Source: Mucilaginibacter endophyticus
Lineage (GTDB): Bacteria > Bacteroidota > Bacteroidia > Sphingobacteriales > Sphingobacteriaceae
Direction: 5' to 3'
Length of the DNA stretch: 64,000 nucleotides
Assembly: GCF_003351025.1 (NCBI RefSeq)
Contig: NZ_QPCG01000001.1
Coordinates: forward strand, 379,949 to 443,948
Position 1 is the first letter of the stretch. The number at the start of each line of letters is the position of its first letter. Position numbers and translations under genes: made by a program. The notes beneath the pieces were generated by a model. The model was not told where the DNA came from, ran no database searches, and saw only the letters and a program-made list of their open reading frames with translations. This document shows positions 52,996 to 54,280 of the stretch, in pieces.

Positions 52996-53135
52996 TATGG
53001 TGTGTTTTAATGTTTTAACAATACAAAGGTGCAATGGTTAGCTAATAAAATTATGGTGACTACTTCAGATTAAATGGTGATCATTTAAGTTTTTTAGTGT
53101 GGGGAGTACCAAAAAACAAAGTTAAGATATCGGAA

Positions 53136-53252
53136 ATTCCCTCCCCCGGGAGGGGTGCGTTAGGGTTGCGTATTGGAAGGGAGGGGTTTATACGTCTTTG
53201 CAATGACCGGCATCTCGCTGAACCCCTCCTACACCCTCCCAGGGGAGGGAAT
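53136..53252. repeat. Palindromic G/C-rich repeat (ATTCCCTCCCC family)
   Basis: ATTCCCTCCCC (53136-53146) and GGGGAGGGAAT (53242-53252) are perfect inverted ends. The inner arms are CCCCTCCT and AGGGAGGGGT. It is an isolated GC-rich island in a noncoding AT-rich region upstream of the SAM riboswitch. Confidence 0.7.
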
Positions 53253-53415
53253 CGCACGGCCCGCACTCTTTCTTTTTATGGTCTAATGGCTATCCTGTTT
53301 CAAAAAGAGACATCACAACCTCTCCCGTCCTGAATTTATTTTACTCATAATCAATACAGAACAAAGAAAAGCAAAATTAAACTACTAAAACTATAGGATT
53401 TATATAATTAATTAT

Positions 53416-53423
53416 TACATTTG
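53416..53423 (+). promoter_or_regulatory. -7 box of the SAM riboswitch transcript
   Basis: TACATTTG matches TAnnTTTG and lies 28 nt upstream of riboswitch helix P1. A partial GATTT sits near the -33 position. Confidence 0.5.
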
Positions 53424-53450
53424 CACTGTCAACAACGACAAAGCGTTCTT

Positions 53451-53571
53451 TTATAACTTATCAAGAAAGACTGAGGGAAAGGCCCAAAGACGTCTTAGCA
53501 ACCTGTACATCCGCATAATGTAAAAGGTGCTAATTCCTGCTCCTGTGCAAAACGGGAGAGAGATAATTATA
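53451..53571 (+). promoter_or_regulatory. SAM-I (S-box) riboswitch with no gene behind it
   Basis: All four helices are present. P1 pairs 53452-53462 with 53562-53571 (TTATC/GATAA and TATAA/TTATA around a bulged C). P2 pairs AAGAC (53467-53471) with GTCTT (53492-53496) around GAGGGAAAGGCCC, followed by the conserved AGCAACC (53497-53503). P3 pairs TACAT with ATGTA. The SAM core GGTGCTAATTCC is at 53526-53537. P4 pairs CTCC (53540-53543) with GGAG (53555-53558). Such aptamers repress methionine genes when SAM is high. No methionine gene follows: the next features are a tRNA-Cys-like element (50 nt) and a TMEM220-like gene (304 nt). Confidence 0.88.
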
Positions 53572-53621
53572 TCTACACCCCACAACCGATCTGATTAAGT
53601 GATTTTTTTCTATAGTTTTCA

Positions 53622-53692
53622 AGTCGCGTGACCGAGAGGATAGGTGGGGGTCCGCAATACCCTAAACGGCAGTTCGAATCTGCCCGCGACAT
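53622..53692 (+). tRNA. Degenerate tRNA-Cys-like element (anticodon GCA, C33, A1:A72 mismatch)
   Basis: The element folds as a 71-nt cloverleaf. The acceptor has 6 of 7 pairs (GTCGCG/CGCGAC) with an A-A mismatch at 1:72. The D-arm is ACCGAGAGGATAGGT. The anticodon stem is GGGGT/ACCCT with loop CCGCAAT, giving anticodon GCA (Cys). The variable loop is AAAC. The T-arm GGCAG-TTCGAAT-CTGCC is perfect. Nucleotide 73 is U, as tRNA-Cys requires. Position 33, almost always U, is C here. No CCA is encoded. Most likely it is a pseudo-tRNA or tRNA-like RNA. It is typed as tRNA because the fold is clear, but function is doubtful. Confidence 0.55.
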
Positions 53693-53875
53693 CTAATTTT
53701 CATCAGCTTCATTTTATATCCATTAATTTTTCCTGTCGTGTTTTGCCGCTTTTTAAGTGCATAAAAACTATTTTTTGCTTTTAAAAACCGAAACATATTT
53801 TCATATATTTAGCATTGCTTAACCTGCATATTAGGCGCCAAAACCAGTATAAATTATTGCAATTGCTTTTTACTT
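53693..53875. other. Noncoding stretch after the tRNA-like element
   Basis: This is an AT-rich interval leading to the TMEM220-like gene. No terminator, -7 box or small ORF was recognised, so the riboswitch transcript could run into the downstream gene. Confidence 0.4.
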
Positions 53876-54280
53876 ATGAAAATCTTCAACATTGTATGGG
53901 TTGTACTTTTTATCATCTTCGCGGGTTTACAGTATAATGATCCCGACCCATATCTTTGGATGCCTATTTATTTGTATTGCGCCTGGTTCTGCTATCTTGC
54001 GGCAAAAAAAGAATTTTATCCAATTGGATACGCGGTAGGTATCGCCATTTTTACAGGTTATGCCATTTATAAAATATTTGACAATAATGGCCTGGTAGAT
54101 TGGTTTGAATATCACCACGCCGAAAGCCTTGTTGAAACCATGAAGGCCGAAAAGCCCTGGGTTGAGGAAGTACGCGAGTTTTTTGGATTGGTGATATGTA
54201 TAGCAGTACTGGGAGCCAATTGGGTTTACGCGGTGAAAGAGCGTAAAAAAGTGCCGGTTAAAAAGAAAGGGAAAAGGTAA
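53876..54280 (+). CDS. TMEM220-like small membrane protein
   Basis: This 134-residue protein has about four membrane helices. It carries the TMEM220-family signature FAGLQYNDPDPYLWMPIYLY near its N-terminus and a basic C-terminal tail (KERKKVPVKKKGKR). Eukaryotic TMEM220 is uncharacterised biochemically and the bacterial role is unknown. The riboswitch and tRNA-like element lie upstream, but a regulatory link is not demonstrated. Confidence 0.82.
   Translation: MKIFNIVWVVLFIIFAGLQYNDPDPYLWMPIYLYCAWFCYLAAKKEFYPIGYAVGIAIFTGYAIYKIFDNNGLVDWFEYHHAESLVETMKAEKPWVEEVREFFGLVICIAVLGANWVYAVKERKKVPVKKKGKR

Follow-up and report, generated by a model that had tools for sequence, protein, structure and literature searches.

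What a SAM-I riboswitch is doing directly in front of a tRNA is the question raised by a short segment of the 64,000-nucleotide stretch of Mucilaginibacter endophyticus DNA that was analysed here as a whole (hereafter the window). It had been suggested in a first-pass annotation that this segment is either a relic, left when a methionine gene beside a tRNA was deleted, or a noncoding transcript that places a tRNA-Cys-like RNA under the control of a SAM sensor. Since the two elements stay paired across many species of these soil bacteria, they have the look of a genuine methionine-status switch acting on a special cysteine tRNA, and the locus is probably best described as a SAM-I riboswitch with a dedicated, perhaps non-decoding, variant tRNA-Cys as its regulated product.

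The SAM-I (S-box) aptamer occupies positions 53455..53569 of the forward strand and matches Rfam RF00162 over its full length (1-108; E 5.8e-17) at 79.1 bits (gathering score 44.4), with the consensus structure and core of that family, in agreement with the complete aptamer that had been recognized by eye; a search of the entire genome (G000) returned the identical score. Only SAM reaches its gathering score in the Rfam scan of the window, where a T-box riboswitch had no match. Upstream, the previously described -7 box was found as TACATTTG at 53416-53423 (forward strand), a putative Bacteroidota-type promoter element with a counterpart 5' of the SAM/tRNA-Cys unit in relatives, which fits TAnnTTTG, the Bacteroidota -7 box consensus. 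Another element, CTATAGGA (53391..53398, forward strand), recurs 5' of the promoter in relatives both with and without the riboswitch (L054, L058, L060, L122, L118, L057 and L052) and may be a regulator site. In several species (L054, L058, L060 and L122) the aptamer's P3 loop is enlarged by roughly 85 inserted nt with many AGTC/GACT repeats, and the three of these that were scanned still score >68 bits in Rfam. In the window, an inverted repeat rich in CCCTCCC/GGGAGGG and REP/MITE-like in character lies between an SDR gene and the riboswitch (53135-53255).

The cloverleaf with anticodon GCA that had been placed about 50 nt 3' of the aptamer is a variant tRNA-Cys(GCA) of a 1:72-mismatch family (53622..53693, forward strand), which starts 52 nt past the aptamer end (53569 versus 53622) and is recovered by ARAGORN, the Rfam tRNA model, CM R1 (97.9 bits) and alignments A1 and A2. 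A fast Rfam scan of the whole window overlooked it, and it was detected when the stretch was scanned singly, at 41.7 bits (gathering score 29); together with ARAGORN and compensatory changes in the stems, this score rules out a random cloverleaf. The peculiarities first ascribed to the molecule are all present, since A1 (53622) stands opposite A72 (53691), U73 is at 53692, and C33 (53653) lies before the anticodon (53654-53656), with U38 at 53658. Judged as an elongator, it departs from expectation at two points, having C33 instead of U33 and A1.A72 instead of a Watson-Crick 1:72 pair, while its T-arm and G15:C48 are normal. The next co-directional ORF, which encodes a TMEM220 protein (53876-54280; Pfam 78 bits), begins ~183 nt past the tRNA end; the 304 nt earlier given as the distance to this ORF corresponds to its separation from the aptamer (~306 nt).

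Of the bacterial cysteine determinants, U73 and GCA have been established as the major ones, and G2:C71 and C3:G70, the latter a minor determinant, are also identity elements for CysRS (PMC9976931). The window tRNA possesses U73, GCA and G2:C71, all three of which occur in 105 of 105 tRNA-Cys compared, the window copy included, and it has U3:A70 in place of C3:G70. This substitution is not discriminating, because U3:A70 is found in 42/61 variant sequences and also in 24/26 normally paired tRNA-Cys of these bacteria. As U73 and GCA are retained, the variant tRNA is likely to be charged by the cell's only CysRS; one such enzyme is present per genome, that of the window included, and a second CysRS dedicated to the extra tRNA was accordingly rejected as a candidate.

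The description of the riboswitch as an orphan proved misleading once its relatives were considered. Among 37 genomes of the genus, with 130 SAM sites and 93 tRNA-Cys genes gathered independently of each other, a tRNA-Cys lies on the same strand within 1.5 kb downstream of a SAM riboswitch in 23 pairs from 21 genomes, where 0.049 would be expected, and 11 pairs fall within 150 nt (0.005 expected); the other orientations gave two upstream and two opposite-strand cases, and because the genomes are related these pairs are not independent events. Order and strand are thus kept in 21/37 genomes, whereas about 40% of the genus is without the linkage. At least five arrangements were distinguished, in which the tRNA follows directly (~50 nt), at a spacing of ~260 nt, or after a 1-Cys peroxiredoxin, cysteine desulfurase or thioredoxin-like gene, and an Rfam rescan confirmed the SAM riboswitch in 40/40 linked loci (68-95 bits). 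The first-pass observation that no methionine gene follows the aptamer holds for the window and extends to every relative seen, none of which has such a gene between the two elements.

The direct arrangement also occurs in one further genus (L144), and the SAM-tRNA-Cys unit was recovered at 85% identity from Mucilaginibacter sp. OK283 (L238), which was the only case of a SAM aptamer followed by a tRNA among the matches listed (118 stretches) from a pan-bacterial pattern scan, with aptamers called by a pattern finder. SAM loci taken from other parts of the phylum (n=30) had no tRNA within 1.5 kb, and the 1:72-mismatch tRNAs of most other genera have no adjoining SAM riboswitch by Rfam, L144 being the exception. 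The recurrent neighbours of the linked loci, namely cysteine desulfurase, 1-Cys peroxiredoxin, thioredoxin-like and DsbD-like proteins and a BshB-like deacetylase, belong to sulfur and thiol chemistry. A neighbouring PLP gene was considered as a possible Sep-tRNA:Cys-tRNA synthase and rejected, as it is the cysteine desulfurase and SepCysS models match it weakly. Three loci (L077, L078 and L080) contain two SAM riboswitches, the first before the tRNA-Cys and the second on the same strand past the DsbD-like gene. G005, G113 and G014 have related gene neighbourhoods in which the promoter and tRNA are kept and the aptamer is absent or survives as a remnant, which indicates that the tRNA is the lasting component of the unit.

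Comparison of the tRNAs themselves shows that calling the window copy degenerate is likewise misleading, because its 1:72 mismatch is a conserved family trait and not decay. In alignment A1 (33 variant sequences, 32 distinct rows) the nucleotides A1 and U73 are invariant and 1:72 is unpaired in 31 of the 32 distinct rows; across the wider variant class (n=61) this position is A.G in 43 sequences, A.A in 14, A:U in three and U.U in one, so that 57/61 carry an A1.R72 mismatch (A.G or A.A) and 58/61 a mismatch of any kind. Compensatory changes in the cloverleaf, which had been proposed as a test of the locus, were found, with eight stem pairs altered on both sides versus 4.8 +/- 1.1 in shuffles and a covariation of 0.220 versus 0.121. 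In directly linked loci the tRNA body has a mean identity of 91.6% and the linker 38%, and judging by such differences the tRNA is under purifying selection. A second class of tRNA-Cys (n=18) has a normal 1:72 pair and an extra base between positions 68 and 69 of the acceptor stem (A in 17/18, C in 1/18) surrounded by compensatory changes; it too is SAM-linked, often lying 3' of a SAM riboswitch and cysteine desulfurase. The loci of this second class are L151-L169 and L173 (alignment A4; for example L153:3764-3836).

How the aptamer might act on the tRNA can be considered from the region between them. It had been stated that no clear terminator lies there, which stands insofar as no conventional hairpin terminator was found between aptamer and tRNA in the window, but does not take account of a conserved long-range alternative stem followed by a U-tract. 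The 5' strand of aptamer helix P1, AACTTATCAAG (53455..53465, forward strand), has two possible partners, the 3' P1 strand and a distal element, GATTAAGTGATT (53593..53604, forward strand), a putative switch element to which it is complementary and which is followed directly by a U-tract (53603..53609, forward strand) that may serve as an attenuator. The complement of the 5' P1 strand within the distal element, TAAGTGATT, shows 98.5% conservation among relatives, in contrast to the variable remainder of the linker. Ligand-free, unconstrained folds formed the long-range stem in 5/6 leaders, and in the five leaders forming it this stem is more stable than the P1 fold by 5 to 14 kcal/mol; a U-tract follows the distal element in 18/19 tRNA leaders as against 6/37 leaders of coding genes. 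In SAM leaders of coding genes the equivalent pairing covaries (cognate -15.6 versus permuted -14.2 kcal/mol, with 0/2000 permutations as good), whereas within the tRNA-direct leaders covariation of the alternative stem was not detected (P = 0.58), the complementarity being present. Two riboswitch-free relatives (G005 and G113) retain a shortened UAGUUUU 5' of the tRNA, as would be expected if the U-tract were part of the tRNA leader and not of an attenuator, and the switch may therefore have either sign.

Based on these features, a single promoter, TACATTTG, would give rise to a short noncoding transcript comprising the aptamer, the 52-nt switch region and the variant tRNA-Cys, and RNase P together with 3' processing would release the tRNA from it. 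When SAM is absent, the aptamer's 5' strand would pair with the distal element to form a terminator-like structure with its U-tract just 5' of the tRNA, whereas with SAM bound this strand would be held in P1 and the path into the tRNA left free. As the attenuator would form without SAM, SAM would permit tRNA synthesis, although the sign could be the opposite. The proposal of a tRNA-Cys-like RNA under SAM-sensor control is strongly supported in its comparative part, by linkage in 21/37 genomes, compensatory changes and selection, while the control itself is a prediction. Carrying U73, GCA and G2:C71, the tRNA would be charged by the sole CysRS, and the mismatch at 1:72, together in the window lineage with the loss of U33 and A38, would make the resulting Cys-tRNA a poor substrate for the ribosome, and it may instead be reserved for a task in thiol or sulfur metabolism.

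The anticodon loop is where this last step meets its strongest competitor. The loop reads CCGCAAU in the window species, G013 and G017 and CCGCAUU in G027, as compared with CUGCAAA in relatives; C33 is thus common to these four, which are without U33 and A38, G027 also being without A37. The loss of U33 in this lineage goes back to a single event in close relatives. Isolated loop changes occur elsewhere, as CUGCAUU in G169, CUGCACG in G160 and ACGCAAA in the second-class copy of G031 (L157), and C33 is also seen in copies from G006 and G082. A tRNA pseudogene was rejected, as the stems are paired with compensatory changes and the window tRNA and that of G027, both with C33, are identical at 64/65 positions of the body and 18/28 of the linker; nor would a pseudogene be expected to alter only its loop while keeping body and identity elements. 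The pattern suggests that the tRNA of the window lineage is charged but no longer decodes. Yet CUGCAAA is the loop of 55/61 variant tRNAs, and GCA and U73 are present in every one of the 61, so that most members of the family could decode, and a non-decoding role may not extend to the family as a whole.

A further source of tRNA-Cys for decoding, set by SAM status, also fits. According to that explanation, which differs from the favoured one only in the role of the tRNA, an ordinary additional translational tRNA-Cys would have entered the SAM regulon, decoding capacity would follow sulfur status and the structural oddities would be tolerated drift. The cysteine desulfurase, peroxiredoxin and thioredoxin-like neighbours suit a theme of sulfur supply, and with several tRNA-Cys genes in a genome, any one copy may be redundant. 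The 7.5 Mb genome of the window organism was found to contain an intact, canonical tRNA-Cys with a G1:C72 pair (C1:515584), for which the first-pass annotation had advised looking, a further tRNA-Cys in a tRNA cluster (C1:1420504) and a second, riboswitch-free A1.G72 variant in a SusC/SusD operon (C26:553432; L079). Against mere drift, the purine-purine mismatch is conserved (57/61; 31/32 distinct rows of alignment A1 unpaired), and the window lineage kept its tRNA body while losing U33 and A38, and in G027 also A37. Taken together, this explanation deserves serious weight, at a little under an even chance. The more specific form of the favoured explanation, in which the riboswitch directly controls a cysteine-charged, non-decoding tRNA with an extra-ribosomal task and the mismatch and bulged lineages were both recruited to one SAM regulon, is put forward tentatively, as closer to one chance in three. 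Side observations on these copies are that A1.G72 tRNA-Cys genes in SusC/SusD/cyanophycinase-like/membrane protein operons (L079:2533-2604, L176, L177, L178 and L158) had no SAM riboswitch found there, and that the tRNA clusters of L171 and L180 hold another, distinct tRNA-Cys beside tRNA-Pro and tRNA-Ile(tat).

It is improbable that the tRNA is instead a cis-acting element of an mRNA, either as an RNase P/RNase Z site or as an enhancer of translation or stability of a downstream gene. When cis tRNAs were grafted into the leaders of mRNAs, translation rose 2-6.3 fold (PMC9142559), and a DsbD-like ORF lies close behind the tRNA in L077 and L078; however, in the peroxiredoxin loci L065 and L067 the tRNA comes last and is followed by a strong terminator, the downstream genes vary among loci, and the cysteine identity elements at the 3' end, needless for a cis element, are fixed. 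Least likely by far is a chance or relic arrangement, an aptamer left from a deleted methionine gene beside a decaying tRNA, which could draw on the poor conservation of most of the linker and on an ancestral sulfur operon that could have lost its methionine gene, but which is largely refuted by conservation, given 23 pairs versus 0.05 expected, varied intervening genes that include a methionine gene in no relative seen, two tRNA families, selection on both tRNA and aptamer, and the persistence of tRNA and promoter where the riboswitch decayed or was lost (G005, G113 and G014). The operon in question is represented in another genus (G130, L150:769-3560) by co-directional metY, 1:72-mismatch tRNA-Cys and 1-Cys peroxiredoxin genes with no SAM riboswitch, and this row may be an ancestral arrangement and a clue to the origin of the SAM-tRNA unit.

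Metabolite riboswitches are known chiefly to regulate protein genes, along with a few small RNAs, and a conserved SAM-I riboswitch before a tRNA would be a new target class. Such a unit would directly link methionine/SAM status to cysteine use at the RNA level, and the variant tRNAs, with fixed cysteine identity and altered acceptor stem or anticodon loop, make dedicated non-ribosomal Cys-tRNAs directly testable. The component parts are of known kinds, and their combination appears new: the open-access literature that was searched yielded no precedent for tRNA genes under riboswitch control or for a SAM riboswitch with tRNA-Cys.

The aptamer is as full-length and high-scoring as expected of RF00162, and the genome has four SAM riboswitches. 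Beyond the window copy these stand ahead of MetH, an O-acetylhomoserine sulfhydrylase-like gene and a thioredoxin-like/SusC operon (named from reading the sequences and not from profile search), in keeping with the methionine, SAM and sulfur genes that the class controls; the window copy differs in that its first downstream product is a tRNA and not a protein gene, with TMEM220 as the next ORF, and in that the usual local terminator/antiterminator is likely replaced by the 5' P1 strand and a distal anti-aptamer. T-box riboswitches are leader RNAs that sense a tRNA and similarly link tRNA and amino-acid metabolism, whereas here a metabolite sensor appears to control the tRNA. The tRNA shares its cloverleaf, GCA, U73, G2:C71, G15:C48 and normal T-arm with elongator tRNA-Cys(GCA) and is set apart by the conserved A1.R72, by C33 and U38 in the window lineage and by being extra to a canonical copy. 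The yjdF riboswitch also brings a riboswitch and a tRNA fold together, but there the aptamer itself is tRNA-like (PMC9142559), unlike here, where a separate SAM-I aptamer stands before a real tRNA whose 3' end is free and whose cysteine identity is intact. Finally, the non-proteinogenic tRNA-Gly of Staphylococcus aureus is dedicated to peptidoglycan, keeps its charging identity and is altered to escape EF-Tu (PMC9976931). As an extra isoacceptor it offers a model for a dedicated Cys-tRNA, at which the sequence hints here and which stands at somewhat below even odds; the differences lie in the amino acid, in the 1:72 mismatch or bulged acceptor stem and in the proposed control by a SAM riboswitch.
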